The notes beneath the pieces are model-generated. The model was not told where the DNA came from. It was given only the letters and a program-made list of their open reading frames with translations, and ran no database searches. From a virus: a DNA stretch of 49,901 nucleotides. Of the stretch, positions 1,532 to 49,901 are shown piece by piece; within the stretch, counting starts at the first letter, position 1; every line of letters begins with the position of its first letter. The translations under genes and the position numbers were made by a program. The stretch is from IMG/VR virus record IMGVR_UViG_3300027977_000050, positions 1-49,901 of that record; one strand, written 5' to 3'.

Positions 1532-1545
1532 GGTGTGCTTCTCCG

Positions 1546-2871: not shown

Positions 2872-2946
2872 CTAGATTCGTGTGGAACGTGTGGAAAATG
2901 TGTAACGTGTTGAAAACTAAAGATAAAATGTAGAAAATGTAGATGC

Positions 2947-3087: not shown

Positions 3088-3104
3088 CATGTGAATCAAG
3101 TTAC

Positions 3105-3204
3105 TAACATTATACACGTTGACGCGAGGAATGAGTGTCCTATAACATTACACCCGCCAGTGATCAACAGCGAGCCAATGAACCACATTGTATAACATTA
3201 TACA
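3105..3204 (+). repeat. TAACATTA octamer copies
   Basis: TAACATTA occurs at 3105, 3143 and 3193 (each followed by a T/C-A-C-A/C context), again at 3521 inside the small terminase gene, and inverted at 2860-2867. Five copies within 670 bp are more than expected by chance. They may be protein binding sites for the divergent promoters or for packaging. Confidence 0.45.
3119..3146 (+). promoter_or_regulatory. Rightward sigma-70-like promoter
   Basis: TTGACG, a 16-base spacer and TATAAC form a plausible promoter facing the terminase gene 250 bp away. The -10 box overlaps one of the TAACATTA copies. Confidence 0.4.
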
Positions 3205-3266
3205 TTCGGCCCACGTTAGCCGCTGGGTGGATATTGGTACGTGTGGCTAGGGTGGGGCGGGGGGCC

Positions 3267-3294
3267 CCTCCCCCACGTTTTCGGTGGGGGGAGG
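3267..3294. other. GC-rich hairpin upstream of the terminase gene
   Basis: CCTCCCCCAC (3267-3276) pairs with GTGGGGG-G-AGG (3284-3294, one bulged G) around a GTTTTCG loop. No T-run follows, so it is not a typical terminator. Its place just upstream of the small terminase gene fits a cos/pac or replication signal, but this is inference. Confidence 0.45.
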
Positions 3295-3393
3295 TCAACC
3301 CGACAAATTTTGGCAAAAGTGAAAAACATTTACCACACGCCCCAGCTCCCACCCCGCTTGACCAAGTTCACCACATTCTGTTATCGTACAATT

Positions 3394-3996
3394 ATGACTA
3401 ACCTTGTCCCGACCACAGCCTATGATCTGCTCGAACCACTGGAACGAGCCGCCGTTGACGAATACGTTAAGTATGCTGTAGAAAAGCAAGTGCGTTCCAA
3501 CCAACGGATCGCCAACGCTATAACATTACCAATTCCCGCTGAGTACATACGCCGGTCACGCGATGCTTTGTACAAGCCGCTCCTACGTGCCGCCATTACC
3601 GAGCGGATCACTGAGATTGCCCGTAGTTATGACATAAGTCCCGATCGGGTCATTGATGAACATGCTAACATTGCATTCAGTACCATCTCAGACTTTTTGG
3701 AACCAGGTCATTACGGCGAAGTGACGCTCAAAGACCTCAAATCGATACCGAAACATAAGATGCAAGCCCTCAAGTCCATTGAGACGAGGCCTGGCAGTTA
3801 TGGGATGGCGATCAAAGTGGTCATGCACGATAAATTTCCATCACTTAAGGCGTTGGGCGACTATATGGGTCTCGTATCACCTGACGCTCCGCCCCCTTTG
3901 CGCAATTATGTGGCTGAGAAGTCCAAGGAGAAGATACTAGAGGCTGTGCCGGAGAAAGCTTACCTTGAATTGCTCGAACAATGCACCCAATCCTAG
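3394..3996 (+). CDS. terS: Terminase small subunit
   Basis: The 200-residue product is the DNA-recognition subunit of the packaging motor. The central and C-terminal part shows the Terminase_2 pattern: NIAFSTISDFLE near residues 90-101, LKDLKSIPKHKMQALKSI, then DKFPSLKALGDYMGL. The N-terminal 70 residues replace the usual short HTH with a longer charged region. ATG 3394 is preferred to upstream GTG codons because the extension lies in the GC hairpin region. No Shine-Dalgarno sequence is visible, and a weak TTGACC-N18-TATCGT ends 6 bases upstream, so a leaderless transcript is possible. It overlaps the large-subunit gene by 16 bases. Confidence 0.85.
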   Translation: MTNLVPTTAYDLLEPLERAAVDEYVKYAVEKQVRSNQRIANAITLPIPAEYIRRSRDALYKPLLRAAITERITEIARSYDISPDRVIDEHANIAFSTISDFLEPGHYGEVTLKDLKSIPKHKMQALKSIETRPGSYGMAIKVVMHDKFPSLKALGDYMGLVSPDAPPPLRNYVAEKSKEKILEAVPEKAYLELLEQCTQS

Positions 3997-5702
3997 GCTG
4001 GAATGACAACGACCGACCCACGCTCAAAATGTGGAAGCCGAAAGGCTTGTCCCATGCGGAGTGGCCGCCCGACTATGACGCTGTGTACCGGTGGCGGCAC
4101 GCAACACTGAGCCGCATGACGGCAGACCCCACCATGTTGGCCAGTGCGCGCACTTACTATTCCACCCGTCCGGCGGAGTTCATTATGGACTGGATGGACA
4201 CCTATGACCCACGGCGCGACAAGAATAAATGGACACCTTTTGTCTTTTTTGAGAAGCAGGTCGAGTTTATTCAATTCCTGCGCGACTTGGACATTGAGCA
4301 GGAGAGTGGGTTGGACGAGAAGACCCGCGACATGGGTGCAACATGGGCTTGCTGTGCCTATAGCATCTGGTGTTGGCTGTTCATACCCAATGATGCAACC
4401 GGCTGGGGGTCGCGCAAGGAGCAGCTTGTGGACAAATTGGGCGATGCGGACAGCATTTTCGAGAAGATGCGCCTCATTCTCAAACGGCTCCCCCCGCTCT
4501 GGCTACCCAAAGACTTTAATTGGTCAAGGCACGCCACATTTATGAAATTGATCAACCCTGAGAACGGAGCCAGCATCACCGGCGAGGCTGGGGACAACAT
4601 TGGGCGGGGGGGTCGTAAGAGCCGCTTTTTCAAGGATGAGGCCGCACACTATGAACGGCCTGAGCTGATCGAGGCTGCGCTCGGCGACACCACCAACGTG
4701 CAGATCGACATCTCATCCGTCAATGGGTTGGGCAACGTGTTCCACCGGCGGCGCAAGAACGGTGTCATGTGGCAGCGCGGCGTGCCGCTCCCCAAGGGCA
4801 AGGTGCGGGTCTTCGTCATGGACTGGCGCGACCATCCGCTCAAGACGCAAGAATGGTATGAGCTGCGCAAGGCCAAATATGAGCGGGAGGGTATGGCGCA
4901 CGTCTTTGCGCAGGAGGTGGACCGCAACTATTCTGCGGCCATTCAGAACACGGTCATACCGCTCGACTGGATACATTCGGCCATTGATGCACATTTACGC
5001 ATCCCAGGCTTTAAAGAGGCGGTCGAGGTCAACCGTGGCCGGTGGGTGGCAGGGCTGGACGTGGCCGATGGCGGCATTGACCGCAATGCACTGGCCATGC
5101 GCGAGTGGGTCGTATGGCGCACCTGCGAGGAGTGGGGCAGCCGCGACACAGGGGTCACTGCGCGCAAAGCCGTCACAGAGTGCCGCGACATCAAAGGTAT
5201 CATCGAGTGCCAATATGACTGCATCGGCGTGGGGTCAGGGGTCAAATCAGAGTATAACCGGCTGGTGGACGACAAACTCATCGACAAAGAGCGACTCCCC
5301 TTCATACCGTGGAACGCAGGTGCAGCAGTGACTCGCCCCTACGACCGCATCATTCCCGACGACAGTGAGAGCATTCTCAACAAAGACTTTTATGAGAACT
5401 TCAAGGCGCAAGCATGGTGGTCGCTGCGCACGCGCTTCTACAAGGTGCATAAAGTGGTCACTGCTGGTGAGATTTACCCCTTTGACGAGCTGATTTCACT
5501 TGACAGCCGCATGCCTTTGATTGAACAGTTATGTCAAGAATTAGCACAGCCCACACACGGCAAATCGACTAAGTTGAAACTCTTGATTGAAAAGACACCT
5601 AAAGGTACGAAATCACCAAACCTTGCTGATAGCGGTGTAATGATGTATTATCCTGCGGACATCAATTCCTCTCAAGTGGAGACAGGTTCCTATGGCTACT
5701 AG
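3981..5702 (+). CDS. terL: Terminase large subunit
   Basis: This 573-residue packaging ATPase-nuclease translocates DNA into the prohead. Near residue 112 EKTRDMGATW is a variant Walker A of the kind found in terminases. SRFFKDEAAHYE (about 213-224) is Walker B with the catalytic acidic pair. VAGLDVADGGIDRNA (about 355-369) carries the first metal-binding Asp of the RNase H-like nuclease. Base composition is more GC-rich than in the genes to the right. It overlaps the small subunit gene and, by 11 bases, the portal gene, as expected of a packaging operon. Confidence 0.93.
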   Translation: MHPILGWNDNDRPTLKMWKPKGLSHAEWPPDYDAVYRWRHATLSRMTADPTMLASARTYYSTRPAEFIMDWMDTYDPRRDKNKWTPFVFFEKQVEFIQFLRDLDIEQESGLDEKTRDMGATWACCAYSIWCWLFIPNDATGWGSRKEQLVDKLGDADSIFEKMRLILKRLPPLWLPKDFNWSRHATFMKLINPENGASITGEAGDNIGRGGRKSRFFKDEAAHYERPELIEAALGDTTNVQIDISSVNGLGNVFHRRRKNGVMWQRGVPLPKGKVRVFVMDWRDHPLKTQEWYELRKAKYEREGMAHVFAQEVDRNYSAAIQNTVIPLDWIHSAIDAHLRIPGFKEAVEVNRGRWVAGLDVADGGIDRNALAMREWVVWRTCEEWGSRDTGVTARKAVTECRDIKGIIECQYDCIGVGSGVKSEYNRLVDDKLIDKERLPFIPWNAGAAVTRPYDRIIPDDSESILNKDFYENFKAQAWWSLRTRFYKVHKVVTAGEIYPFDELISLDSRMPLIEQLCQELAQPTHGKSTKLKLLIEKTPKGTKSPNLADSGVMMYYPADINSSQVETGSYGY

Positions 5703-17308: not shown

Positions 17309-17736
17309 TGTGGAGCAATGATTACATCCACGTGCAATTCAAAGATCACGGGAGAAGCAAAGTCGGTGCGGACTGTTGGGGTTTAGTTAGGATAATTTAT
17401 CAGGAGCGATTAGGAATTATCCTACCCTCTTATGATGAAGTTTACACCGATGTTTTAGACCGTCAGGGAATCGCCGATAATTACCAACAGCACCGTCAAG
17501 ATTGGTTGCCAATTGAGCAAGGTTTTGAAAAAGAATATGATTTAGCGGTGTTTAGGATGCTCAACCTACCGACACATGTGGCTGTTGTAATTAAGCCTAA
17601 TTTGATGATACATTGTGAGCGCGGCTGTGGAACTTGTGTCAGCGATTACAAGGAAGAAAGACAGTGGTCACGAAGGCTAGAAGGGTTCTACAGGTATGCG
17701 GCAAGTTCAGACATCTCTTCTACCGTTTCACCTTGA
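17308..17736 (+). CDS. NlpC/P60-type tail peptidase, gpK-like
   Basis: The frame is open from 17245, but ATG 17308 overlapping the upstream stop is chosen, giving 142 residues. GADCWGLVR supplies the catalytic Cys, THVAVVI the His and MIHCERG the third-position region of the NlpC/P60 fold. These enzymes cleave peptidoglycan peptides and act at the tail tip in assembly or entry. It overlaps the tail tip gene by 41 bases. Confidence 0.82.
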   Translation: MWSNDYIHVQFKDHGRSKVGADCWGLVRIIYQERLGIILPSYDEVYTDVLDRQGIADNYQQHRQDWLPIEQGFEKEYDLAVFRMLNLPTHVAVVIKPNLMIHCERGCGTCVSDYKEERQWSRRLEGFYRYAASSDISSTVSP

Positions 17737-20700
17737 TCGCAAGACAATTCTTGTTGATGAGGGTATGTCTGTAGAGCGTGTTATCGACAGTCTTTTCCCG
17801 CAAAATATAAAAGTTCAAGTGATGATCGATGATAAAACCGTCGAGCGAGAACTGTGGGCAGAATTAATTCCGCCTTTAGATTCACATTTTTCAATTATAG
17901 CAATTCCGGCGGGTGGTAAAGGTAAAAACCCTCTTGCTATCATCCTAATGCTTGCTGTGGTGGTTGCTGCGGCTTGGGCTGCACCTATTCTTCTTGCTGG
18001 AACTGCGCTTGCGGGTTCAGCAGCAGCGATCGCAGGTGTTACAGCAGCTATCGGCGCGGTCGGGTCTCTATTGGTCTCAATGATTGCTTCAACACCTCTA
18101 CAATCATCTTCGAATAGAAACTCTGATGTCAAAGAATCAACGACTCAATTTATCGAAGGTGCATCGAACGCTATCGATCCTTATGGTGTGATACCGATTA
18201 ATCTCGGTACAAACCGCATGTTCCCTAAACAAGCTGCGAGACCTTACACTGAAACAAGTTCAAACCTGCAATATGTGCGCCAACTTTTCACTTATGGGTT
18301 CGGAAAACACGTTATAACAGACAGAAAGTTCGGTGAGACACCTATAGGTGAATATAGTGATATAGATTTAGAAGATAAATTGAATGGTGATCTTAGCGAT
18401 GGAACATCTATTTATTCAAACGATGTATATCAGGAAAGTATAAGTACAGTCGTAGCAGCGAGTGAAGGTTATATTTTGAGAACGACTCAAACCAACAGCA
18501 ACGAAGCTGAGATGGATTTAACTTTCGGAAGAGGTTTGACGATCTACAATGATGCAGGTAACAGAACTGAAGCATCGGTTGAATTTGAACTTCAATTTGC
18601 ACCAACTGGTACGTCCGATTGGAGTTCAGGTTCAGCAGGGATTAGTTATTCATCTAAAAACGTAACGATACCTTCAAGATATATTGGTCAAGTATTGATT
18701 CATAGACAGGGGTACTTCAGCGTATTCTATAGAAACTCCCATGTGGTGTTTCTTAATTACTATACCGGTGAAGTAGTTCTTAAATCCTATACGTCGGCTA
18801 ACTCTGTTTTACCATCTGATCCTGTACCGCCGACACCTTATGGTCACATACGTATTGCTTCAATCTTGGTCACGGACTCAGGTGCTACAGTGACCGACGA
18901 ACGTATCAACAATGTACCTGAGTATTTTGCTGATCTGACACATTTTACACCGTCAGTATCAAGTATGACGCTGACCATTGGGGCAGGTACGATAACATCT
19001 AACAAGTTTAGAATTACAGCAAGCACTGCTGAACCTTTAAGGATTTCTAAGCGTATGGTCTTTCCCTCAGCAGCTCAATATGACGTGCGTATAAAGCGTC
19101 TTACTGCGGATTCGGTAATTGATAAGCAGATTGATGAATGTACTTTGACCGCTCTGAAAAGTATTAGATATATTCAACCAGTAGCACAAGAGGACATCTC
19201 TGGTACTGCGATGCGTATACTTGGTACAGATCAGCTCAACGGGTCTATACAAAATTACAATGTGATATGCTCAACAATCATACCTTTTTACGATGTGGAC
19301 ACCGATAGTTGGGTAGAGGGTGTTTCTTCTGATCCTGCTTCTATTTACAGATATGTTTTACAGTGCGATGCGTTTGTAGAGAGCAAGCGTTTGCCTGACG
19401 CGCGCATAAACATATCCAAGTTGGAAGAGTGGTCAGATTATTGCCGTGAGAAAGGTCTCACTTACAATCGCGTTATAGATTATGAAGCGAGCATTGACGA
19501 TGTGCTGAATGACATTTGTGCTGCGGGTATGGCCACTAAACATTACGTGGATGGTGTTTACAGTGTGATCGTCGATAACGAACGAGACACGGTTAAGGGT
19601 CTTGTAACACCGCGCAATAGTTGGGGATATAAAGGAATAATCACCTATCCAGAATTACCACATGCTTTTCGTGTTGAGTTCCGTAATCCTGATAAGGGTT
19701 ATCAGATAGACGAAAGGATAGTTTATCAAGACGGGTACAATGAGAGTAATGCAACAGATTTTGAACGCATAGAATTGAGTAATTGCACAAGTGCTTCTTT
19801 GGCTTACTATTACGCTCGTAGATATTTAGCCACTCTGAAATTGCAACCAGAAGTGCACACCTTTAACATGGACTTTGAGAACCTAGCGTTCAACAGAGGG
19901 GATCGTATTCAGCTCGTGAACGATGTCGTGTTAGTCGGCGTAGGTCAAGGTCGCATCACTGCGCTGACGGATAATGGTACACACGTTACATCATTCACCA
20001 TCGATGAAACGTTGACCATCCCGACAGTGACCAACTTCGGCGCGCGCATACGACACGCAGACGGTTCAGGATGTCTATGGTACGAGATTGTCAATGTGCC
20101 TGGTGAAAGAAACACGTTCACCTTTGTCACACCTGTTTTGATAGCCAGCGCACCTGGTCTTGATAGTTTGTGTGCGTTTACCGATTTTTCTTCTCAGTTG
20201 GATTTGGTCGTTTCATCGATAACCTTAGACACGAACCATAATGCTCAGATCAACGCGATTAATTATGCACCATCTCGGTTCAATGCTGATACAGAAGTTA
20301 TACCTGATTTCACAAGCAACATCATCCAACAGATTGGTGCATACACACCAGACGCTCCGATTTTAAATGGTGAAATAGCTTCAGATGAAACTGTCATGAG
20401 TAAGAATAGCGATGGTTCTTACACGTCACGCATGATCATAAATCTCACCAATACGAATGAAGCAACGGTTCAGCCGATTATAAAATATCAAAGAGTTGGT
20501 GATACACTGTGGTCTCGACCTGACACTCTAATCCGCGACGCTGATCGGGTAGTATTAACTAACCTCGAAGATGGTAAGTTCTATAATTTTGAAATCCGTT
20601 ATCAGCGTCAAACAGGGCAGATGCTTTTGTCCCAGCCTTTACGTCTGAATAACGTGAAATTTCTGGGAGCGAGTTCAATACCTGATGATGTATCTACGTT

Positions 20701-27543: not shown

Positions 27544-27577
27544 CAGCGGCTCATGTTTGCGCATGGCCGCTGTTTTT
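27544..27577 (+). terminator. Terminator between convergent gene blocks
   Basis: CAGCGGC (27544-27550) with further CATG pairing meets GCCGCTG (27566-27572), followed by TTTTT. It ends rightward transcription and overlaps the stop of the minus-strand GcrA-like gene. Confidence 0.8.
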
Positions 27578-28093
27578 CTCCACATACCTCGTCTTAATCT
27601 CATTCCGCATTAACCCAGCCCGTAGCATTGCATCAATGTCCTTTGGCGTTTCTGGCACATGTAGCGGCTTCCAGTCTAGACCGACGTTATCCTTCCACAC
27701 GCTATGATTTTGCTTATTGGTTGTATCGAGTCGTTTCTTTGTGCATTTTGGCATTTCAACACCTTTCTCTTTCAGTCTGTGCATCATACCAACTATGGCA
27801 TTTTTGGTTGTATCGAACGCGGTTGCTATCTCTCTCAGCGTGTAACCATCCTCAATCATTTTGAAGATTGTATCGACTTTGTCTTTCCAAAGTATTTTTA
27901 TGTATCCGCATTTGTTTGATTTTGGTAATGAACCATCCTGCCGCAACCGAAACAACATTCCAGCTATGGCATTGCGCGATTTACCAAAATGCTTGCCGAT
28001 TGTCTTCAGCGGCACTTCTTTGCTGTGCATTTCGATAAGTAGTTTTATACGTTCGGTTGACCACATGTGGTTATCTGCCTCTTCAAGAGTCAT
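27551..28093 (-). CDS. GcrA-like protein with two HTH domains
   Basis: The 180-residue product holds two copies of a GcrA-type DNA-binding module. The first spans about residues 10-52 (MWSTERIKLLIEMH, then IGKHFGKSRNAIAGMLFRLR). The second spans about 68-110 (LWKDKVDTIFKMIEDGYTL, then FDTTKNAIVGMMHRLKEKG). GcrA is an alphaproteobacterial cell-cycle regulator acting on methylated promoters. A phage copy with a doubled reader domain could regulate phage or host promoters. AGGAGCGAAC precedes the ATG. A 510-bp leader without genes lies upstream. Confidence 0.7.
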   Translation of the reverse strand: MTLEEADNHMWSTERIKLLIEMHSKEVPLKTIGKHFGKSRNAIAGMLFRLRQDGSLPKSNKCGYIKILWKDKVDTIFKMIEDGYTLREIATAFDTTKNAIVGMMHRLKEKGVEMPKCTKKRLDTTNKQNHSVWKDNVGLDWKPLHVPETPKDIDAMLRAGLMRNEIKTRYVEKNSGHAQT

Positions 28094-29947: not shown

Positions 29948-30120
29948 GGGATTTCCTTATCTGCATATAGAATGCCCGATGTTACACCCCATTTTGAGGG
30001 CTCATAACGTTGCCTGTAAATACGTCCGTCCGCGCTAACTATTACCTTTATATTTTCAGCGGATAAAATCTGCGATGGTGTATGGTTTACAATGTAATAG
30101 TTAAACTCAGTAGCAATCAT
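29944..30120 (-). CDS. Small unknown protein, 58 aa
   Basis: A 58-codon frame starts at ATG 30120, overlapping the stop of the repeat protein gene (ATGA), and ends in an ATGA junction. The product is beta-like (ENIKVIVSADGRIYRQRYEP). No family is recognised. Confidence 0.5.
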   Translation of the reverse strand: MIATEFNYYIVNHTPSQILSAENIKVIVSADGRIYRQRYEPSKWGVTSGILYADKEIP

Positions 30121-31157
30121 TCCCGTTTCTCCTTCTCCAAGCGTTGCGCGATTTTCTTTAAAAGATTGATTGCATCGTGGTAAAGGCTTTCCTTGCCGTA
30201 TTTTTCTTCAATTGCAATTAATATTTTTTCTTCATCGCCAAATCTGCACCCAATCTGAAAACGATAAACATCATCTTCACCATGCCAACAGGATATACCG
30301 CCAGAATATCCAATTGAATGGCATTGAATTATTCTGTTATTCTTAAATTTAAATCCGCCAAAGCTGCACCCCTCGCCAAAGCTGCACCACTCGCCAAAGT
30401 TGCATCCCTCGCCAAAGCTGCATCCCTTGCCAAATCTGTACCGCTTGCCAAAGCTGCACTGCTCGCCAAAGCTGCATTCCTTGCCAAAGCTGCACCACTC
30501 GCCAAAGCTGCACCGCTCGCCAAAGCTGCACCGCTCGCCAAAGTTGCATGCCTCGCCAAAGCTGCACCACTCGCCAAAGTTGCATCCCTCGCCAAAGCTG
30601 CATCCCTTGCCAAAGTTGCACCACTCGCCAAAGCTGCATCCCTTGCCAAATCTGCATGCCTTGCCAAAGCTGCATCCCTCGCCAAAGCTGCATACCTTGC
30701 CAAAGCTGCATACCTTGCCAAATCTGCACCGCTCGCCAAAGCTGCATTCCTTGCCAAAGCTGCACCACTCGCCAAAGCTGCACTGCTCGCCAAAGCTGCA
30801 CCGCTCGTCAAAGCTGCACCCCTCGCCAAAGCTGCACCCCTCGCCAAAGTTGCACCCCTCGCCAAATCTGCACCCCTCGCCAAAGTTGCATCCCTCGCCA
30901 AAGCTGCATCCCTTGCCAAATCTTCTTATATTTGAATAATCAGTAAGGGCTGGGCAAAGCGTAATCCCATCCACCACAGGAAGATTATCAAACTCTTGTT
31001 GTGTGATTGTGTTCATTTTGTTTCCTTCTCCAAGCGTTGCGCGATTTTCTTCTAGTCGTTCGTTGCGGTAAATGTCGTCTGCGTCCGGTTCGCACACACG
31101 TTTCAGCGTTCGCAGGAATGAAGCATCCGATAGGCGGTTTGTTTTAATGGGGGTCAT
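30117..31157 (-). CDS. Hexapeptide-repeat protein (C-x-F-G-E-x repeats)
   Basis: The product contains about 31 consecutive six-residue repeats of the form C[SNR]FG[EK]x (about residues 80-272 of 346), then a C-terminal domain (HGEDDVYRFQIGCRFGDEEK and a final helix). Period 6 suggests a left-handed beta-helix with a Cys and a Phe stacked on each turn, but this is inference. An internal ATG at 31016 with AGAAGGAAACAAA upstream could start a 299-residue form. The 47-residue extension to ATG 31157 is in frame and has its own GGGAGGATG site. Function is unknown. Confidence 0.65.
   Translation of the reverse strand: MTPIKTNRLSDASFLRTLKRVCEPDADDIYRNERLEENRATLGEGNKMNTITQQEFDNLPVVDGITLCPALTDYSNIRRFGKGCSFGEGCNFGEGCRFGEGCNFGEGCSFGEGCSFDERCSFGEQCSFGEWCSFGKECSFGERCRFGKVCSFGKVCSFGEGCSFGKACRFGKGCSFGEWCNFGKGCSFGEGCNFGEWCSFGEACNFGERCSFGERCSFGEWCSFGKECSFGEQCSFGKRYRFGKGCSFGEGCNFGEWCSFGEGCSFGGFKFKNNRIIQCHSIGYSGGISCWHGEDDVYRFQIGCRFGDEEKILIAIEEKYGKESLYHDAINLLKKIAQRLEKEKRE
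30130..31051. repeat. 29-bp direct repeat flanking the hexapeptide gene
   Basis: A perfect 29-bp direct repeat occurs at 30130-30158 and 31023-31051, one near the 3' end of the repeat gene and one just upstream of its internal start. The interval is 893 bp. The two copies are read in different frames. Confidence 0.85.
30355..30928 (-). repeat. 18-bp tandem repeat, about 32 units
   Basis: On the plus strand the unit is near CTCGCCAAAGCTGCACC. Variation is mostly in the third unit positions (CTC/CTT, GCT/GTT/TCT). Because the unit has no stop in most frames, several false open frames appear on both strands; only the CxFGEx frame on the minus strand is linked to non-repeated coding sequence on both sides. 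Confidence 0.9.
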
Positions 31158-36258: not shown

Positions 36259-37236
36259 CTAGCGTTGAGGCAAGGGTGGTATTCCGTTAGTAGGGTATGA
36301 AGTCACACCTGGCACAGTACCACCTTGCATCTGGGGCACGGGTGGTTGCTGGTACACCGCAGGTGCAGCAGGTTGGGTAAACCCCTGCTGCGGTACACCC
36401 GTTACATTCTGCACAAAGTCATGTGCAGGTGCAGGGAGTTGCGGCTGTGGAGCCATCATCGGAGCAGGAGCGTATTGCTGCTGCGGCTGTGGAGCCATCA
36501 TCGGAGCAGGAGCGTATTGCTGCTGCGGCTGTGGAGCCATCATCGGAGCAGGAGCGTATTGCTGCTGCGGCTGTGGAGCCATCATCGGCATTTGAACACC
36601 AGCAGGAGCCGATGAAGCAGGGATAGATGATGCACCTTGTGGTAATTGATACGTCTTACCGCCGAACAAATCGTTCGGATTACTCATACCAACATAGTTG
36701 ATCTCAGTACCATAACCAACCAGCTCGAAACCGTTCGGGTTGATATAGAGACCACCGTCGCTCGTGTTGTGCGGTTTGATCGTCACATTGGCCACAACGT
36801 AATCGCCGCACTTCAATTCATGTTCTGCGAGTTGACGGTATGCACCATTCTCGTATTTATGAACCGATGGCATAAATGCCTCAGTAGCGATAGTGATGAC
36901 GTAGTGTCCAGGATAACCCTCACGTTGGTTATAAGGTATTTTACTACCCTTTGGTGTTTGAGGTGAATCACCGTCTACATATTTCCAAGAGTAGTCTGGT
37001 GGATAAACACCTTGAGCAATTTCCGGATGGAGCAAGCTTGCCTCACGAACCAATAATGGCCAGACATTTTGCATGAACTGGTCTTTAGGGATCGCAATCT
37101 TACAACGCCATTCAGAGACTTCTTTACCATCCTTGAGAATAGGTTGCTTGGTTTTCATGTTGGTTTTCGTTTCAGTGCGCAACGGATGCCCACCAACAAT
37201 ACGACCAACAGGTAATAAGACTTTTTCGATTGTCAT
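36259..37236 (-). CDS. Single-strand DNA-binding-like protein with PQ-rich tail
   Basis: The N-terminal 200 residues resemble phage DUF2815-type ssDNA-binding proteins: EWRCKIAIPKDQFMQNVWPL, then VANVTIKPHNTSDGGLYINP and NGFELVGYG. Residues about 205-275 form a disordered tail with three to four copies of a 14-residue PMMAPQPQQQYAPA unit. The end is Gln/Pro-rich without the acidic tip typical of bacterial SSB. Place between polymerase and nuclease genes supports a replication or recombination role. Confidence 0.75.
   Translation of the reverse strand: MTIEKVLLPVGRIVGGHPLRTETKTNMKTKQPILKDGKEVSEWRCKIAIPKDQFMQNVWPLLVREASLLHPEIAQGVYPPDYSWKYVDGDSPQTPKGSKIPYNQREGYPGHYVITIATEAFMPSVHKYENGAYRQLAEHELKCGDYVVANVTIKPHNTSDGGLYINPNGFELVGYGTEINYVGMSNPNDLFGGKTYQLPQGASSIPASSAPAGVQMPMMAPQPQQQYAPAPMMAPQPQQQYAPAPMMAPQPQQQYAPAPMMAPQPQLPAPAHDFVQNVTGVPQQGFTQPAAPAVYQQPPVPQMQGGTVPGVTSYPTNGIPPLPQR
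36443..36588 (-). repeat. 42-bp tandem repeat in the SSB-like gene
   Basis: Three full 42-bp units start at 36443, 36485 and 36527, and a fourth partial unit starts at 36569. They are nearly identical at DNA level, which implies recent expansion. They encode the 14-residue PQ-rich unit. Confidence 0.85.
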
Positions 37237-39674: not shown

Positions 39675-39886
39675 TGACCTGTCGCGGCTGTGAGTATCTC
39701 GACGTGCCGCTCGATAAGATCGGCAGACGAATACCTAAGACCAATTTTATGTATGGATGTAAAGCACCGATTCCTGCGCCAGACTATCCATCATGCGTTC
39801 GTCTGCGAATCACCGAATCAATGAAGTGCCACATGTCACCCGATGACGGTAAAAATTGTCCAAGCTTCAAGAGCATCATTAAATGA
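39674..39886 (+). CDS. Small Cys-rich zinc-binding-like protein, 70 aa
   Basis: ATG 39674 overlaps the upstream stop (TAATG). Cysteines occur as CRGCEYLD, YGCKAP, YPSCVRL, KCHMSP and NCPSF, consistent with a small zinc-binding protein. The end overlaps the helicase start by 4 bases. No family is recognised. Confidence 0.6.
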   Translation: MTCRGCEYLDVPLDKIGRRIPKTNFMYGCKAPIPAPDYPSCVRLRITESMKCHMSPDDGKNCPSFKSIIK

Positions 39887-42528
39887 TCAAGCTTCACCCT
39901 CATCAAATTACACTCAAGAATGATATTTATTCGAGTTGGAATGCGAACAACAGGAACGTGATTGCCGTGTTGCCAACCGGCGGTGGTAAATCTGTGATCG
40001 TTTCTGACATCACCTATGATGGTTTTAAAAGTAACATGCGCCAAGCAATTATCGCGCACCGCAATGAACTTGTCACACAAATGTCATCGCATATTGCACA
40101 GCGCGGCATTCCACATCGGATCATTGGTTCAGACAGCACCGTGCGGCAAGCCATTGACAAGCATTATAAGCAATTCGGGCGATCATTTATCCACCCATCC
40201 GCACCGACAGCGGTTGTGGGTGTGGACACGTTGATGTCGCGTAAAGACGATCTCGTGTCATGGGCGAAGCAGATTGACCGATGGACAGTTGATGAAAGTC
40301 ATCACGTTATCAAGACGAATAAATGGGGTCAAGCGGTTGAGATGTTCAGCAACGCACACGGTCTCGGTGTAACGGCCACACCGATTCGTGCGGATGGTCA
40401 AGGTTTGGGTCGTCATGCGGATGGTGTATTTGATGCGATGGTTCAAGGTCCATCGATGCGTTGGTTGATCGAGAACGGGTTTCTTGCTGATTACGATATT
40501 GTTTGTCCAAAATCTGATCTCTATGTCGACGATAAAATCGTTAGTAAGAACGGTGATTGGTCGAACCAAACACTGCGTAAAGCCGCTAAAAAATCGCACA
40601 TTGTTGGTGACGTTGTTGAAAATTATGTAAAGCACGCCAGTGGGCGTAAAGCGATTGTCTTTGCGACAGACGTTGAAACAGCCGGAGAAATTGCTAAAGA
40701 GTTCAACGAAGCAGGGATACGCGCTGCAAGCCTGAGTGCGGAATCTTTATCTACAGTTCGTGAAAAATATTTGAGCGAGTTCTCCGATGGTCGATTGAAA
40801 GTTTTGATCAATGTTGACCTCTTCGATGAAGGATTCGATTGTTTAGATTTACAAACTGAAGTGCTCACTCCTAACGGTTGGAAGAATTATGCGGATATGA
40901 AGAGTGAAAAAACTTGTTATGCTTGGAATAGCGATACAGGAGAAGCTGAAATAGTATCAGTCCAAAAATACGGTATTAGACTATTGAGGGACGGTGAAAA
41001 ATTACTAGAGATTAAAAGTCAGCATACAGACATTCGAGTAACTGAAAACCATCGTATATACTCAAAGGATGTAAATTATTATAAATATAATAGTGGTTTG
41101 TCAGATGATGTTAAAATATGCACTGCGGGGGAAATATATTCAAACTCGCGTAATAAGTTTGCATTACCAATATCATCGGAAAAAACATTTAAAGGACTGC
41201 CTCTGTGCGACGATGAGATACGTATTCTTGGTTGGTATATGACCGACGGATATATGACAAAGAACAATGCTCTTGAAATATACCAATCTAAAAAACATCA
41301 GATTAAAAAAATCAGAGACATGTTGGGACGTTTGGGTTGGTATTATACTGAGAGAGAAAGAATCATTAAATCATCTTATACAACGATAGGTAAATTGACA
41401 TGTTTCTATGTTCCAAAGAAGCAATTAGAACATCTATTACCTTACATGGATAAAAAGAATCCACCTTCAACTTTGAACGATTTATCGAAAGAACAATTTA
41501 AGATTCTTTGGGATACGATGATGGATGGTAATGGTTCTAAACAAGGTAATAAAGCGGGGGTATGTGTCACAAGATATAAAGGTCAAGTTGATTTTATAAC
41601 TTCCGCTGCTGTGGTACGCGGGTATGCTACAATGTACGGGACGTATCAAAGTAAGAATAATGTCAAAATGTACAACATGCGAATCCGTGATGAAAAGTGG
41701 ATGAGATTTTATCAGAAAGATAAAAGAGGTGCGAAATTTAAGTTTTATATTCCTAAACAGAAAGAAAGAGTGTGGTGTATAACCAATAGACTGGGAACAC
41801 TGATCACCCGACGTAACGGTAAAGTGATCATACTCGGCAACTGCCCATCCTGTGATGTTGTGATCCTCGCAAGGCCCACCGCATCACTTGGTAAATACCG
41901 TCAAATGATCGGGCGTGCGCTGCGCTATATGGATGGTAAGGTAGCTCGAATCATCGACCACGTGAGCAACGTGATTCGTCATAAACTACCTGATCAACAT
42001 ATCGCTTGGTCGCTCAACCGACGCGACAAACGTGCCAAACAGCTTAAAGACCCAGACGACATTGAGTTAACGGTATGCACCGCTTGTTCAAAACCCTATG
42101 AAAAATTCCGAACCGCTTGTCCATATTGTAACCATCAAAAGCCATTACCTGAGCCACGCAGCAGGAGCATCGAGATGGTCGAAGGTGATCTCATCCTGCT
42201 TGACCGAGCCACATTGGAGAAGATGCGCGGCAAGACCTTACTGGAAGCCCCAGGAGACGTGGCAAACAGGGTTGCTGCTGTCGCCGGTGTCATTGCGGGT
42301 AAGGGCGCGGCGAACCGCCAGATGGCCAAATTTGAGGCGCATCGAGACCTACGTGAATCAATTGCTCAATGGGCCGCTGTGGAGCGCGCGCGCGGGTTCA
42401 ACGATAGTGAAATTCAGCGTAAGTTTTACTTGACTACAGGGGTGGACATATTGAGCGCGTTGGACGCATCGAAGCCAGCTTCAGAGATGACCGAGATGGT
42501 TGAGCGCGTGAAAGGGTGGTATTTATGA
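39883..42528 (+). CDS. SF2 DNA helicase interrupted by an intein
   Basis: The 881-residue precursor holds a DEAD/DEAH-type helicase: LPTGGGKS (Walker A, residues 30-37), VDESHH (motif II), GVTATPIRADG (motif III), then INVDLFDEGFD (motif V) and QMIGRALR (motif VI). A 334-residue intein (residues 320-653) splits motif V. Removing it joins DEGFD to CPSCDVVILARP and leaves a 547-residue helicase. A CTACSKPYEKFRTACPYC zinc ribbon (about 732-749) follows. It would unwind DNA during replication or repair. Confidence 0.9.
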   Translation: MIKLHPHQITLKNDIYSSWNANNRNVIAVLPTGGGKSVIVSDITYDGFKSNMRQAIIAHRNELVTQMSSHIAQRGIPHRIIGSDSTVRQAIDKHYKQFGRSFIHPSAPTAVVGVDTLMSRKDDLVSWAKQIDRWTVDESHHVIKTNKWGQAVEMFSNAHGLGVTATPIRADGQGLGRHADGVFDAMVQGPSMRWLIENGFLADYDIVCPKSDLYVDDKIVSKNGDWSNQTLRKAAKKSHIVGDVVENYVKHASGRKAIVFATDVETAGEIAKEFNEAGIRAASLSAESLSTVREKYLSEFSDGRLKVLINVDLFDEGFDCLDLQTEVLTPNGWKNYADMKSEKTCYAWNSDTGEAEIVSVQKYGIRLLRDGEKLLEIKSQHTDIRVTENHRIYSKDVNYYKYNSGLSDDVKICTAGEIYSNSRNKFALPISSEKTFKGLPLCDDEIRILGWYMTDGYMTKNNALEIYQSKKHQIKKIRDMLGRLGWYYTERERIIKSSYTTIGKLTCFYVPKKQLEHLLPYMDKKNPPSTLNDLSKEQFKILWDTMMDGNGSKQGNKAGVCVTRYKGQVDFITSAAVVRGYATMYGTYQSKNNVKMYNMRIRDEKWMRFYQKDKRGAKFKFYIPKQKERVWCITNRLGTLITRRNGKVIILGNCPSCDVVILARPTASLGKYRQMIGRALRYMDGKVARIIDHVSNVIRHKLPDQHIAWSLNRRDKRAKQLKDPDDIELTVCTACSKPYEKFRTACPYCNHQKPLPEPRSRSIEMVEGDLILLDRATLEKMRGKTLLEAPGDVANRVAAVAGVIAGKGAANRQMAKFEAHRDLRESIAQWAAVERARGFNDSEIQRKFYLTTGVDILSALDASKPASEMTEMVERVKGWYL
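40840..41841 (+). mobile_element. Intein with LAGLIDADG homing endonuclease
   Basis: The 334-residue intein begins CLDLQTEVLTPNGWK (Cys1) and ends VIILGN before Cys+1 of the helicase. Block B is TENHRIY. The endonuclease has two LAGLIDADG-type helices: ILGWYMTDGY and ILWDTMMDGNG. Block F reads WCITNRLGTLIT. The penultimate residue is Gly rather than the usual His. The DNA is visibly richer in A and T than the helicase around it, which fits horizontal arrival. Confidence 0.88.
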
Positions 42529-42908
42529 AAGAATTGGCAGTAAGCAACCATGTGCGATTGCGCGCCGCGCAGCTCGGTATTGATCTGTGGCGCAACAATT
42601 CCGGCGGGTTCTACGATGATAACGGTCGGTTCGTGCGTTACGGTTTGGGCAGCTTTGTGGCTGAGAGAGATAAGAAAGCCTCATCCGATTTTATCGGCAT
42701 CACACCTGTGGTCATTCAACCTTGGATGGTCGGTCTGACGCTCGGTGTGTTCACTGCGATCGAAATGAAGGAAGAAGGATGGGTCTACAGACCATCGGAC
42801 AAGCGCGCCTTGTATCAAAATAATTTTATTGATATAGTGAAAAAAGCAGGAGGATATGGGGGTTTTGCGACTTGCCCTGATGACATCAACAGGATTATTG
42901 GACGATGA
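42525..42908 (+). CDS. VRR-NUC-type nuclease
   Basis: The start at ATG 42525 overlaps the helicase stop (ATGA). The 127-residue product has LWRNNSGGFYDDNGRFVRYG, SSDFIGI, and GVFTAIEMKEEGW with the catalytic E-X-K. FATCPDDI follows at the end. This is the compact VRR-NUC domain found in phages, often proposed to cut branched or Holliday junction DNA. Confidence 0.82.
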   Translation: MKELAVSNHVRLRAAQLGIDLWRNNSGGFYDDNGRFVRYGLGSFVAERDKKASSDFIGITPVVIQPWMVGLTLGVFTAIEMKEEGWVYRPSDKRALYQNNFIDIVKKAGGYGGFATCPDDINRIIGR

Positions 42909-43198
42909 AACACGGTAGCGTTATAAAAGAAAGGATATTGGAAGCAGGTGTTAAGGCTTGGGTCATTGATCCAACCTCCGTCACCGCAGCAAACATTGCA
43001 CGCATTCTCGGTATGCCAGCGCACGGGAATGTTTTATATCATTTCCCAAATGGCTCACTACGAGACGCTATTGCCGAATATGCTGTGCGGAACAAACACA
43101 AACAACTCGTTCCCATTCTCATTGCGTCACGTCATCCTTCTGTAGCAAAGCTAACGCCTTCCGAACGTGATCATTTTCTTCGGGCTTTATCGAGATAA
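42905..43198 (+). CDS. TetR-like HTH protein, 97 aa
   Basis: The N-terminal half has SVIKERILEAGVKAWVIDPT, then SVTAANIARILGMPAHGNVL and YHFPNGSLRDAIAEYAV. That is the three-helix TetR DNA-binding pattern ending in the YHF-N-L-A motif. The C-terminus is short, so the usual ligand domain is absent. Its last 80 bases overlap antisense to the methylase-like gene. Confidence 0.65.
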   Translation: MKHGSVIKERILEAGVKAWVIDPTSVTAANIARILGMPAHGNVLYHFPNGSLRDAIAEYAVRNKHKQLVPILIASRHPSVAKLTPSERDHFLRALSR

Positions 43199-45770: not shown

Positions 45771-45799
45771 AAGTTATGCTATCGCCCGAATCTTGTCAA
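45771..45799 (-). promoter_or_regulatory. Leftward promoter, leaderless
   Basis: On the minus strand TTGACA (45799-45794), 17 bases and TAACTT (45776-45771) end six bases before the start codon at 45764. The spacer contains ATTCG followed by a partial second half-site. Confidence 0.65.
45775..45791. promoter_or_regulatory. Degenerate copy of the dyad operator
   Basis: TATGC-TATCGCC-CGAAT keeps one perfect half-site and most of the middle of the copies at 1905 and 1936 (shared TATCGCGCGAATCTTG-like core). It sits in the spacer of the leftward promoter. Confidence 0.45.
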
Positions 45800-45813
45800 G
45801 GCGATTTTAGGCG

Positions 45814-45842
45814 TTGACAGGCGAAAGTGGGAACAGTAATAA
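45814..45842 (+). promoter_or_regulatory. Rightward promoter, leaderless
   Basis: TTGACA (45814-45819), a 17-base spacer and TAATAA (45837-45842) end six bases before ATG 45849, so the transcript should begin at or next to the start codon. It drives the HTH, methyltransferase and primase genes. Confidence 0.65.
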
Positions 45843-45848
45843 TCCGTC

Positions 45849-46025
45849 ATGCAGAAAAAAACCCTCAATCTCACCGAACTAGCGAAATATATTGGTATTC
45901 CCAAGCGAACCTTGTTTGACATGATTCGTAATGGACGTTTTCCAGTTGATCCGCTTATTAAAGCCACTCCTCGTCTCTGGTCAACTGAACAAGTTGATGC
46001 GTGGTTGAGGGGTGAAGGAAAATGA
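45849..46025 (+). CDS. Excisionase/AlpA-like HTH protein, 58 aa
   Basis: The 58-codon product has LTELAKYIGIPKRTLFDMIR, NGRFPVDPLI, then RLWSTEQVDAWL. This is the MerR/excisionase-type winged helix of AlpA and HTH_17 proteins. With no integrase in view, a transcriptional regulator is more likely than an excisionase. The stop overlaps the methyltransferase start (ATGA). No Shine-Dalgarno sequence is visible. Confidence 0.7.
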   Translation: MQKKTLNLTELAKYIGIPKRTLFDMIRNGRFPVDPLIKATPRLWSTEQVDAWLRGEGK

Positions 46026-47236
46026 GAGTATTGAGCCTTTTTGACGGCATGTCCGGCGGTATGTTCGCATTGCAGCGCGCAGGTGTACAGGTGGACAGCT
46101 ACATCGCAAGTGAGATTGATAAGTACGCGATCAAAGTTTCCCAAGCTAACTTTCCAAACATTATTCATGTGGGTGATGTTCGCAATGTGCGTTTCATGGT
46201 TGAAGCGGGTCTACTCGGCAAGATTGATCTTTTAATCGGTGGGTCGCCGTGCCAAGGGTTCAGTATGGCTGGTAAGGGTTTAGCATTCGATGATCCACGC
46301 AGCGCATTGTTTTTTGAATATGTTGCGGTGTTGAATGTGCTCCGCAAGCAGAATCCTGACCTCCTATTCTTACTTGAAAATGTGAAGATGAAGAAGGAAT
46401 GGTTAGCGGTAATTGATGAGCACATGGGTGTGAAGAGCGTGGTGATAAACTCTGCGTTGGTGAGCGCGCAGAATCGAGTGAGGCACTATTGGTGCAATTG
46501 GCCTGTGTCGCAACCTGCTGATCGTGGTTTGTATCTTCGTGACATTATTGAGACGGGTGAGGTTGATACGCAATGTGTAGCATTTGATGCGCCGAAAAAA
46601 TTGTTCAATGTGAACCCGAGCGGTAATGGGATGAACGGTTGGGTGTACAGCACTGACGCAAAAGCACCGACTGTTACGACCAATAAAGGTGAGGGCAACA
46701 AGATCACAGCACCTAAATACTTACCCGCATCAATCGTTGGCAGAAGATTAAATGAACGCGGTGTGAGGGATGACTACAACAAAGAAGTTCCCATAACTCA
46801 ATGCTTACAAGTTAAACATGACGATAAGAAAATGGGCTGTCTAACTACCGTTGATAAAGATAATGTTTTGTCAACGATGCCACCAGGTAGATACCCGTTA
46901 GTTCTCGCCGGTCATGTTCCTAAGATCACCGGCGGCGCAGTTCGCGGACGCAGCATTATTGACGGGAAAAGAAAAGATTATAAGGGTGCGTCAACTGAGC
47001 AGCGTTTAGAGGTTCGTGATGATGATAAATCAAACTGCGTTACCACTGTGGGTAAGGATAGTGTGCTCACGAATGGTATCACCTACCGCAAGCTGACCCC
47101 GCTGGAATGTGAACGGTTGCAAGGTGTGCCAGATGGAGCAACGGCCCATGTGAGCAACACGCAGCGGTATCGCATGTTGGGCAACGGTTGGCAAATTGAC
47201 ACTGTGGCGCATATTTTTTCGGAGATGCCCAGATGA
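46022..47236 (+). CDS. C5-cytosine DNA methyltransferase
   Basis: The 404-residue product contains motif I (LSLFDGMSGGMFALQRAG), motif IV with the catalytic Cys (GGSPCQGFS), the ENV motif VI (LLENVKMKK), QNRVRHYW (motif VIII) and motifs IX-X (LTPLECERLQGVP, RYRMLGNGW). The target region between them contains two copies of a segment, QCLQVKHDDKKMGCLTTVDK and EQRLEVRDDDKSNCVTTVGK. No restriction enzyme gene is adjacent, so it probably protects phage DNA or alters host marks. It overlaps the primase gene by 4 bases. Confidence 0.9.
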   Translation: MRVLSLFDGMSGGMFALQRAGVQVDSYIASEIDKYAIKVSQANFPNIIHVGDVRNVRFMVEAGLLGKIDLLIGGSPCQGFSMAGKGLAFDDPRSALFFEYVAVLNVLRKQNPDLLFLLENVKMKKEWLAVIDEHMGVKSVVINSALVSAQNRVRHYWCNWPVSQPADRGLYLRDIIETGEVDTQCVAFDAPKKLFNVNPSGNGMNGWVYSTDAKAPTVTTNKGEGNKITAPKYLPASIVGRRLNERGVRDDYNKEVPITQCLQVKHDDKKMGCLTTVDKDNVLSTMPPGRYPLVLAGHVPKITGGAVRGRSIIDGKRKDYKGASTEQRLEVRDDDKSNCVTTVGKDSVLTNGITYRKLTPLECERLQGVPDGATAHVSNTQRYRMLGNGWQIDTVAHIFSEMPR

Positions 47237-49515
47237 TCAAAGAGTACATCGCTGCATTGACCGGATCACCTGACACTGTGATGGATTGGCGCGTCATTAA
47301 TGACCGTGACAAAGGCGCATGGGCCGTCAATCTGCGTGGCTCAATTGATCAAGTTTGGCAACAGCTTTGCGATTACAACCAGAAAGGTTGGGGCATTTTT
47401 GTCAACGTTAATGCAATGGATGGTCAAGGGAGTGAACTCACCAATGTGCATTTTATTAGAACGCATGTGGTTGACCTTGATGACTCGTTGACCTCAGTTG
47501 CAAATTACCAGCGTGCCATTGCTTCACCTTTACCACCGCACTTCGTGGTTCAGACAAGCCCAAATAAATTTCATCTCTATTGGCTGGTTGAACCCTATCA
47601 AGGTAATGATTTCTACACCACCCAACAGCGCAAACTGAACCAAGTGTACGATGGTGATCGTAAGATTGTTGATGCGACTCGAGTGTTGCGCGTTCCAGGC
47701 TTTTATCATTGCAAAGGTGAACCAATGTTGGTCACTTATCAACCATTGCACGCTGGTGCGCGCTACACGGCGCAGCAGATAGCGGATAATTTTACTCATG
47801 TGAATGTTGTTGAGCGTTTGAGCAGCAGAAGCCCTCTCGGTACACCTGATCTGGCCGCCCCTGACCTATCTGTATTGGTGCGCGCACTTCACATGCTCGA
47901 CCCAGCCGAGTTGTCTCGTGATGAGTGGATGAGCATTACCGCCGCATTCAAGCAATCCGGTTGGACAATCGCTTCAGAGCAACAGCTTTATCAATTGTGG
48001 TCAGAGTGGTGCGCCCGATACCCTAAGAACGACCAAGCAGAGAATGCAAAGTTGTGGACGAGTATTAAGGACACAGAGGTGGGTTGGCACGCATTTATGC
48101 GCCGCACCAACATCAAGCCATACACGCTGTTCGGTGAAGGTGCTGCTACCCAGAGGTCGCCGGTGGAGCATTATAACCCTGCGCCGCCAGTGCAAGCCGA
48201 GCGGTCTGTCGACTATGAGTACCCAGAGATTTTAGATGCAGAGGATTGCAAGCGTTATTTTCATAACTGTTTCTGGGTCGAATCAATAGGTGAGATTTTT
48301 ACACCCTCTGGCCGATTTATGAACCCTACCCAGTTTAACGGCACGTATGGTGGACACCAGTTCATCATTGCGCGGCAGGGTGGTAAGACCACCGATGAAC
48401 CGTGGAAAGCATGTCTGCGCTCTACAAATTGGTCAATTAAGAAGGTGGATCACACGCGCTTCATACCCAGCTTACCATCCTTCGAGGTCGTCTTGGATGA
48501 GTTAAAGCGTAAAGGCGTGAATATCTACCTACCCATCGAAGTGGATGCGCGCGCCGGTGATGTGAGCCGCTGGTTGAACCATGTGGATAAGATTTTACCC
48601 AATAAAAATGACCAAGCGATCCTCTTTGCATTTATGGCGCATTGTATCAAGTTTCCAGGCGTTAAGGTGCGTTGGGCATTCCTCCTCCAATCTGCCGAGG
48701 GTATTGGTAAGAGCATATTCAAGTTGATCATGGACCATTGTCTCGGTTCAATGCGTGTGCACTCACCTAACGCAAACGAGTTGACCGAGGGCGGATCGAA
48801 GTTCAACTCATGGGTGCAGCACAAATTGATGATCATCATTGATGAAATCAAAACCGATGAACGGCGTGAACTTGTTGAAATTCTCAAACCCATGATCACC
48901 GATGAACGCATTGAAATACAAGCCAAGGGTCAAGACCAAGAAATGTTTGACAATCCGACTAACTGGATGTTTTTCTCAAACCATAAAGATGCGATCCCCG
49001 TGAGCAGAAATGGTCGACGTTATTCAGTTGCATATTCGTGTTTGCAAACCACTGAACAAATTTTAAACGCTGGTATCAATGATGAATATCTGAACGATAT
49101 GTTCACATGGTTAAAAAAAGGTGGTGGGTTACAGGCTATTGCACATTGGTTCCTGAATTATCCTGTGGAATGTGGTCAACTCCCTTCGCGCGCTCCACAC
49201 ACATCATCGCACGCTGAGGTCATCAAGATCAGCCGTACACCTGTTGAAGCATTGCTCGACAGCAAGATTGAATCGAATGCAAGTGGCTTCAAGAACGGTT
49301 TTGTCAGTGTCACGGCGTTCGTCAAAGCCATCTTGCACCAGAGATTAAAGCCGCCAGCCGAGCATAATATCAAGGCGATCCTTGAGAGCCGTGGCTATCA
49401 TGAAATAGGCTACACCAGCCAACCTGTTACGGGCGAAGAGGTTGATCGGTGCAGCCTGATTTTCCATGTGGACAAAATGGCACGTCCGGATGATTATTTC
49501 ATGGCGCAGACGTGA
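47233..49515 (+). CDS. Primase-helicase (RepB-like primase, D5-like helicase)
   Basis: The 760-residue protein combines two replication activities. The N-terminal part has HVVDLDDS (catalytic Asp pair), NKFHLYWLV and DATRVLRVPGFYHCKG, typical of RepB-like primase-polymerase domains. About 210-250 a PriCT-like segment (LVRALHMLDPAELSRDEWMS) follows. The C-terminal helicase has SAEGIGKSIFK (Walker A, about 486-496), LMIIIDEI (Walker B) and a sensor Asn/Arg (MFFSNHKDAIPVSRNGRR). It would unwind DNA and prime replication, perhaps at the iterons to its right. Confidence 0.87.
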   Translation: MIKEYIAALTGSPDTVMDWRVINDRDKGAWAVNLRGSIDQVWQQLCDYNQKGWGIFVNVNAMDGQGSELTNVHFIRTHVVDLDDSLTSVANYQRAIASPLPPHFVVQTSPNKFHLYWLVEPYQGNDFYTTQQRKLNQVYDGDRKIVDATRVLRVPGFYHCKGEPMLVTYQPLHAGARYTAQQIADNFTHVNVVERLSSRSPLGTPDLAAPDLSVLVRALHMLDPAELSRDEWMSITAAFKQSGWTIASEQQLYQLWSEWCARYPKNDQAENAKLWTSIKDTEVGWHAFMRRTNIKPYTLFGEGAATQRSPVEHYNPAPPVQAERSVDYEYPEILDAEDCKRYFHNCFWVESIGEIFTPSGRFMNPTQFNGTYGGHQFIIARQGGKTTDEPWKACLRSTNWSIKKVDHTRFIPSLPSFEVVLDELKRKGVNIYLPIEVDARAGDVSRWLNHVDKILPNKNDQAILFAFMAHCIKFPGVKVRWAFLLQSAEGIGKSIFKLIMDHCLGSMRVHSPNANELTEGGSKFNSWVQHKLMIIIDEIKTDERRELVEILKPMITDERIEIQAKGQDQEMFDNPTNWMFFSNHKDAIPVSRNGRRYSVAYSCLQTTEQILNAGINDEYLNDMFTWLKKGGGLQAIAHWFLNYPVECGQLPSRAPHTSSHAEVIKISRTPVEALLDSKIESNASGFKNGFVSVTAFVKAILHQRLKPPAEHNIKAILESRGYHEIGYTSQPVTGEEVDRCSLIFHVDKMARPDDYFMAQT

Positions 49516-49704
49516 TTAAGCAGATTTAAGATATTCGTCCCTGCACACTGCGCTGCACCAGCGGCGACTATCGTGTAATGGTACAGCGCAGTTAAGGCAG
49601 ATACCCGTGCCGCACTTAACCACCGGCTCAGGGGCACGTATGGCAATGGCTTGCTGGGTGTGCAGCTCGGCACGTTCGTTTGCTGCGTCGATTATATCAG
49701 TCAT
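49516..49704 (-). CDS. TraR/DksA-like zinc finger protein, 62 aa
   Basis: The product opens MTDIIDAANERAELHTQQAI, as phage TraR proteins do, and has a C4 cluster CLNCAVPLHDSRRWCSAVCR. TraR-type proteins bind RNA polymerase in its secondary channel and alter promoter choice. Its coding sequence contains one extra copy of the iteron core, GTGTAATGGTACAGCG (49573-49588). The gene ends back-to-back with the primase-helicase gene. Confidence 0.72.
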   Translation of the reverse strand: MTDIIDAANERAELHTQQAIAIRAPEPVVKCGTGICLNCAVPLHDSRRWCSAVCRDEYLKSA

Positions 49705-49720
49705 TCTTTCCTATCCTTTT

Positions 49721-49855
49721 GTGTAATAGTACAGCGGTGGTTTGTGTAATAGTACAGCGGTGGTTTGTGTAATAGTACAGCGGTGGTTTGTGTAATAGTA
49801 CAGCGGTGGTTTGTGTAATAGTACAGCGGTGGTTTGTGTAATAGTACAGCAATAC
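49721..49855. repeat. Six 23-bp direct repeats (iterons)
   Basis: Units start at 49721, 49744, 49767, 49790, 49813 and 49836, an exact 23-bp period. Each has the core GTGTAATAGTACAGCGGTGG and holds TGTA-ATAG-TACA, a small inverted repeat. The last unit diverges after the core. A seventh, one-mismatch core lies at 49573 in the TraR-like gene. Exact phasing and place next to the primase-helicase suggest a replication origin. Confidence 0.85.
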
Positions 49856-49901
49856 CCCACTAAACTGGTTGGTTAAATTGCTAAGTCATTGATTTTCCTT
49901 T

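Follow-up and report, generated by a model that had tools for sequence, protein, structure and literature searches.

Repeat array beside a primase-helicase-like gene

The window that we analysed (49,901 bp) is an entire virus record, and its two ends have no sequence in common. Near its right end, a primase-helicase-like gene (47233–49515, + strand) with RepB_primase, PriCT_2 and DUF5906 domains is followed by a 62-aa ORF for a DksA/TraR-like zinc-finger protein on the − strand (49516–49704; phrog_54, 1.5e-7); when pieces of 11 records were compared, this smaller gene had a match in L069 only, and it has weak matches in 15 named phages. Beyond it lies an array in which six identical units follow one another every 23 bp (49721–49850, − strand), each holding the 15-bp core GCTGTACTATTACAC when read on the − strand. 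The innermost core ends 16 nt ahead of the ATG of the DksA/TraR-like ORF, and a perfect IHF consensus (WATCAANNNNTTR, here AATCAATGACTTA; 49882–49894, − strand) is located 31 bp past the outer copy. At the opposite end of the contig, leftward genes (12–2871, − strand) are followed by terS (3241–3996), whose homologue in the related phage G015 matches Terminase_2, and by terL (3981–5702). Given that the Rhizobium phage RHph_X2_24 has the gene order primase, mostly leftward small genes, terminase, synteny suggests that the two ends of the window are probably neighbours across a gap. Elsewhere in the window we observed a long inverted repeat (by eye) between the leftward cluster and terS (2960–3090), with TATAACATTA motifs close by; a GcrA-like protein (27554–28093; Pfam 1.7e-8), which may hint at an alphaproteobacterial host; and an 881-aa helicase gene (39883–42528) with a weak internal LAGLIDADG match, perhaps an intein.

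Tandem Repeats Finder, run on the whole window, reported a repeat at 49718–49850 with a period of 23, 5.8 copies and 100% matches, and a search for TGTAATAGTACAGC recovered six exact copies (starting at 49722, 49745, 49768, 49791, 49814, and 49837) together with a seventh, at 49574, that carries one mismatch. In order-1 Markov simulations (n = 100, 49,901 bp), exact 14-mers spaced 14–40 bp apart formed runs of at most one copy, compared to six in the window, and the consensus core GCTGTACYATYACAC occurred once beyond the array, compared to zero times in 60 simulations. The six copies at a 23-bp period and the additional core within the TraR-like gene, both reported in an initial annotation of this DNA, are therefore real. 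That annotation had also placed TGTA-ATAG-TACA in every copy, which is correct for the six array copies; the lone core within the DksA/TraR-like ORF (GCTGTACCATTACAC, 49573–49587, − strand, oriented as the array) corresponds to TGTAATGGTACA, that is, TGTA-ATGG-TACA. Its description of the repeats as unlike anything else in the window agrees with our survey, as the two other long arrays (30356–30920 and 36440–36588) are both within genes and the sole other non-coding tandem repeat listed (2881–2916) consists of just two copies of an 18-bp unit. One leftward gene of 346 aa (30117–31157) carries ~31 copies of an 18-bp unit, with FGEGCS-like hexapeptide repeats.

Because all units of the array are identical, spacers included, the sequence indicates that it expanded recently via tandem duplication. 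The spacing is exactly 23 bp, as had been noted, but after such duplication exact phasing alone is no sign of selection. The copy number may be misjudged by short-read assembly, and the contig extends just 51 bp beyond the array. We found no matches to Rfam at the gathering threshold, no tRNA, and no sigma-70-type promoter at the array, the region 49000–49901 giving one + strand match at 49469 with 1.5 expected. We also considered TAC[CT]AT as a sigma-70 −10 box and gave this up, since the copies in G015 have no common upstream −35 element (by eye).

The element in related phages

A search with an alignment of the primase recovered 15 viral loci, P106B among them; P0001 as a lone query found no relatives in viral_contigs, yet 481 named phage records matched it by tblastn. 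Two of the relatives, G015 and G004, carry the element. Their kinship to the window phage is evident in terL (66% over 560 aligned residues for G015; 63% for G004 over 388, where the compared piece ends) and in the DNA polymerase (61% and 62%, respectively). When 19 records were searched by BLASTN for the array, G015 alone was significant (E 5.5e-8), followed by four matches in W01, W02, and W04 at E 4.48–4.71; against named phages and plasmids the best E-values were 2 and 6. The plain pattern TGTANNNNTACA was present in three of 18 records (once each in G003 and G004, three times in G015) and was never arrayed. A degenerate core allowing up to two mismatches, run on eight records including the window, matched seven times in the window, nine times in G015, four times in G004 and once in W02 (reverse, two mismatches), and had zero matches in G003, G006, G013, and W01; a control pattern gave 0–1 matches per strand. 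Within viral_contigs, scans of which may leave out records very close to the window, a core-pair search recovered G015 and G004 as well as one repetitive stretch (L095), a complete unit of the G015 type recovered G015 only, and an exact 19-mer had no match. Literature searches on such repeat systems and on Rhizobium phages yielded nothing on this phage group among the papers listed, and none of those listed for Rhizobium phages named P106B; we make no claim that the repeat system is unpublished.

G015 has seven copies between 14380 and 15863, six exact and one with one mismatch, which, read in the direction of the leftward genes, have the sequence GCTGTACCATCACAC-NNACACC. Three of them occupy gene leaders: the G of the preceding gene's TAG stop is also part of the copy at 14449 and of that at 15414, copy 15001 comes after TGA-TAG, and each of the three extends to the RBS of the next leftward gene, which is then followed by the ATG. 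Copies 15795, 15826, and 15849 constitute a small array (31- and 23-bp spacing) ahead of another gene, and copy 14380 is in coding sequence soon after a gene start. The core is kept exactly in two coding sequences, at 14380 in G015 and at 49573 in the window. G004 has six copies, at spacings of 91, 21, 23, 21, and 21, in a stretch (2846–3750) without a leftward ORF of at least 55 aa; the surely non-coding part is ~0.6 kb, given a possible 48-aa leftward ORF (3519–3665) and the extension that a GTG start would give the downstream ORF. This array is not directly ahead of an obvious gene start.

The primase-helicase gene adjoins the array in the window and not in these two relatives, where the distance between array and primase is 8.2 kb (G015) and, if the contig ends join, ~7.6 kb (G004). 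In G004 the orientation of the primase relative to terS is the opposite. Both arrays remain in the leftward small-gene cluster, and a homologue of window 950–1615 is found upstream of the G015 array (G015 17694–18545), consistent with positional homology. The G015 genes that come after its array were matched by tblastn in neither the window nor G004.

An asymmetric unit oriented with the leftward genes

We aligned 17 copies (four of the seven in the window, seven from G015, and six from G004), in which the columns GC..TAC.AT.ACA are invariant and the majority sequence is GCTGTACCATTACAC in the sense of the leftward genes. Including a looser ACACC-like tail, the element is ~22 bp long. The TGTA...TACA dyad of the window is absent from most G015 copies, which have TGTA/CACA, and from the G004 copies; because the dyad is not kept across the 17 copies, we conclude from the alignment that the conserved unit is asymmetric.

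All aligned cluster copies are in the gene-reading direction. When up to three mismatches were allowed, matches followed the leftward-gene sense in seven of eight cases in the window, seven of seven in L091 of G015, and six of seven in L093 of G004, and the exceptions to the cluster orientation (window 3139 and L093 3071) each have three mismatches. Outside this pattern, G015 carries matches antisense in a rightward gene at 11789 (one mismatch) and 12035 (two mismatches), and G004 has a distant two-mismatch match at 45456. Across the three phages, the asymmetric core, sense orientation, IHF consensus, and location in the leftward cluster are conserved, whereas dyad symmetry, the primase neighbour, and the downstream gene are not.

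IHF consensus next to each array

A perfect match to WATCAANNNNTTR, the IHF consensus as printed in PMC10380432, is present past the outer copy and in the same orientation in all three phages, at a distance of 31 bp in the window, 41 bp in G015, and 8 bp in G004. On both strands of the whole records such matches number four in the window, one in the 52.7 kb of G015, and eight in G004. The rough chance of coincidence is 0.004 for the window, 0.002 for G015, and 0.0075 for G004, calculated for a 100-bp stretch at the same-strand density (2, 1, and 4 sites, respectively) for a site that was spotted after the fact. Because the sites were noticed post hoc and the three phages share descent, these coincidences are support rather than proof; the IHF consensus by each array speaks for a complex that would form at the DNA level.

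A putative control element of the leftward gene cluster

Judged from these comparisons, the locus is most likely some kind of protein-binding repeat array. Our favoured interpretation, which we put at about even odds, is that the array represents a control element of the leftward small-gene cluster, oriented with transcription and amplified in tandem, at which a putative phage protein and host IHF would bind. We favour control of transcription because the element has a sense orientation and gene-leader placement and its location tracks the leftward cluster rather than the primase; the fact that in related phages it precedes several genes in the reading direction points to a gene-control signal rather than a replication origin. 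A sequence-specific protein, probably phage-encoded, would bind the copies, and IHF would bend the DNA by the array such that a multi-copy complex could assemble there and control transcription into the downstream genes. Depending on their orientation, single copies may affect RNA polymerase as it passes or the start of each gene, similar to the stoperators of mycobacteriophages, and in this phage the array would have grown to six copies recently. Many short dispersed phage repeats have no known function; if our interpretation is correct, what appeared to be a replication origin becomes a testable gene-control element and a defined probe for its binding protein.

One candidate for the binding protein, which may be of the HTH type as the initial annotation had suggested, is a 97-aa protein with a TetR-like HTH sequence (42905–43198, + strand) that is conserved in relatives. 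It had no Pfam match; its structural model has a pLDDT of 90.4, and the structural matches listed for this model were mostly TetR-family regulators, none below E 0.29. We also considered a 58-aa HTH_17/excisionase-like gene (45849–46025) and rejected it, as it has its own repeats upstream in four relatives. These have a 10-bp period, are just upstream of the homologue of the 58-aa gene in P106B, L054, L055, and L067 (window region 45780–46025), and differ in sequence in each. A tyrosine integrase (PF00589) was matched in none of the three records compared to 14 of 14 controls, so that the lysogenic repressor that stoperators need is not in sight. A search for a single-subunit RNA polymerase (PF00940) likewise had no match in the three records, with the control itself matching 0 of 14 genomes.

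It is conceivable, if rather doubtful, that this phage group without a recognised tyrosine integrase gates transcription through the leftward cluster by orientation-dependent, IHF-assisted repeats, arrayed in that cluster and present singly between genes, and that lineages swap the repeat and its binder together, with a 21-bp GC-rich unit in G005 and G010 and CTTCAC repeats in G013.

Alternative explanations

A replication origin is a weaker rival of the control-element interpretation, and we consider it unlikely. Under this explanation the units would be iterons bound by a putative phage initiator with IHF bending the DNA, and the single copies would serve autoregulation or copy control. Iteron origins that use IHF, such as those of pSC101 and R6K, have an IHF site next to direct repeats that each span about two helical turns. 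The arrays described here resemble them in their direct repeats of this length next to an IHF consensus, with regular spacing (mostly 21 or 23 bp in G004) and a perfect consensus in three of three phages, but unlike these origins they are not AT-rich in G015 and G004 and have no DnaA box or initiator gene nearby there, and single copies occur in leaders. The window array is 60% AT compared to 54% for the record, and stretches of up to 80% AT are found ~400 bp upstream of the G004 array; the arrays themselves are nonetheless 47% AT in G015, compared to 48–51% for the genome pieces, and 55% in G004, compared to 59–63%. Similarly, a one-mismatch DnaA box at 49467 is ~250 bp from the window array, but there are 31 such matches in the window, and within 1 kb of the G015 or G004 array every 9-mer differed from a DnaA box at more than one position. 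Other repeats occur between primase and terminase in relatives (21-bp units in G005 and G010; CTTCAC/GTGAAG with an IHF consensus in G013), and in another phage (L014) a phased TGTAN4TACA array is just upstream of a Phage_rep_org_N replisome organiser gene (PF09681, 4.7e-45), which would fit an origin, although the L014 cores are symmetric and the element of the window, G015, and G004 is asymmetric. The spread of copies over gene leaders in one orientation, and the position of the G015 and G004 arrays away from the primase with no separate initiator gene identified, also argue against an origin. The more specific proposal of the initial annotation, an origin bound by the primase-helicase, is not supported by the comparison with relatives: in G015 and G004, ~8 kb separate the array from the primase, gene-leader copies are in the transcription sense, the arrays of these two phages are not AT-rich and have no nearby DnaA box, and the dyad is lost. 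Binding by the primase-helicase has no support.

The placement of G015 copies between stop codon and RBS in the sense orientation could also reflect a leader element at the RNA level, in which the transcribed unit acts just upstream of the RBS, a mode of action also proposed for start-associated sequences, through a protein, a small RNA, or contacts with the ribosome. We regard this as rather improbable, given that the transcripts have no unusually stable fold (five stretches, z −0.04 to +1.53), two copies are within coding sequence, no obvious gene start comes directly after the G004 array, and the IHF consensus by each array points to DNA. Less probable still is a neutral minisatellite, that is, a lone leader element duplicated by slippage in this phage with a functionless copy number; the complete identity of the window units, spacers included, is what such slippage would leave, but two relatives keep diverged multi-copy arrays in the leftward cluster together with the IHF consensus. 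Lastly, the end of the contig 51 bp beyond the array, together with the direct repeats that IS21-family ends bear according to the excerpted text of PMC11208146 and PMC10122671, raised the very remote prospect that the array represents the terminal repeats of an IS21-like element with its transposase past the contig end, a lead that we dropped after BLASTN and genome searches, as the location in the leftward cluster is kept in three phages, single copies are found between genes, and no transposase was seen by eye among the ORFs listed around the G015 array.

Comparison with known phage repeats

The closest known systems are the stoperators and start-associated sequences (SAS) of mycobacteriophages, and neither fits the putative control element fully. 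Cluster A (L5-type) stoperators are described in the portions available of PMC9283540 and PMC4351075 as asymmetric 13-bp sites that occur genome-wide in promoter regions and short intergenic spaces and are bound by the immunity repressor. As far as these descriptions go, the element is similarly asymmetric, intergenic, and oriented with transcription; in contrast to stoperators it is longer, belongs to one cluster, forms a tandem array by an IHF consensus, and has no integrase match and no known repressor. The SAS and ESAS repeats of cluster K, in the part of PMC3203893 available, are asymmetric, precede non-structural start codons in a near-constant orientation, sometimes contain the upstream stop codon, and have no known function; SAS are 13 bp long, hold the Shine-Dalgarno core, and are typically 3–7 bp from the start (PMC3203893). 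On this partial account the element shares with SAS its asymmetric leader repeats, mostly single orientation, and overlap with the upstream stop codon. Unlike SAS, which are at the RBS, it is upstream of the RBS, the core end being separated from the ATG by 24–29 nt in four leaders of G015 and by 16 nt in the window, and it forms arrays. The 17-bp repeats of cluster O, as they appear in extracts of PMC4351075, are present in many copies throughout genomes in both intergenic and coding sequence, have dyad symmetry, and are of unknown function; the element here likewise has many copies, intergenic and coding, so far as that text describes the cluster O repeats, but it is asymmetric and mainly confined to one cluster.

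Other repeat arrays in phage records

Tandem or phased repeats were found in G004, G005, G010, P106B (at the far end of L008), L064, and L100 among the pieces of primase relatives, most of which had none. The more distant relatives G005 and G010 have in common a 21-bp direct-repeat array (L062 8754–8861; L057 9156–9233), different from the window element; this 21-bp array precedes what, by eye, is a promoter-like sequence of the TTGACA type for leftward genes. In G013, CTTCAC/GTGAAG repeats surround an IHF consensus, and eight of the 24 such hexamers of L065 are within ~290 bp. AT-rich non-coding stretches are present in the leftward cluster of P106B, X2_24, and G004, and no array was found in those of P106B and X2_24. 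In viral_contigs, TGTAN4TACA arrays occurred in 41 stretches, whose motifs were different ones and frequently symmetric; a narrower pattern gave seven. Three matches in genome_contigs were set aside as other array types in other settings. The phased symmetric TGTAN4TACA array of L014 covers 1984–2033, upstream of the Phage_rep_org_N gene, and a further one is within the terminase small-subunit gene of L017 (12205–12258). The contig G010 starts and ends in the same 39-bp tandem array (L062 8994–9131 and the end of L100), which suggests that its assembly broke at the repeats. Finally, TGTAACATTACA/TGTAATATTACA dyads were observed in the phage contigs L022, L035, and L038, with several clusters in L035 and L038, some of them flanking hairpin-like sequences.
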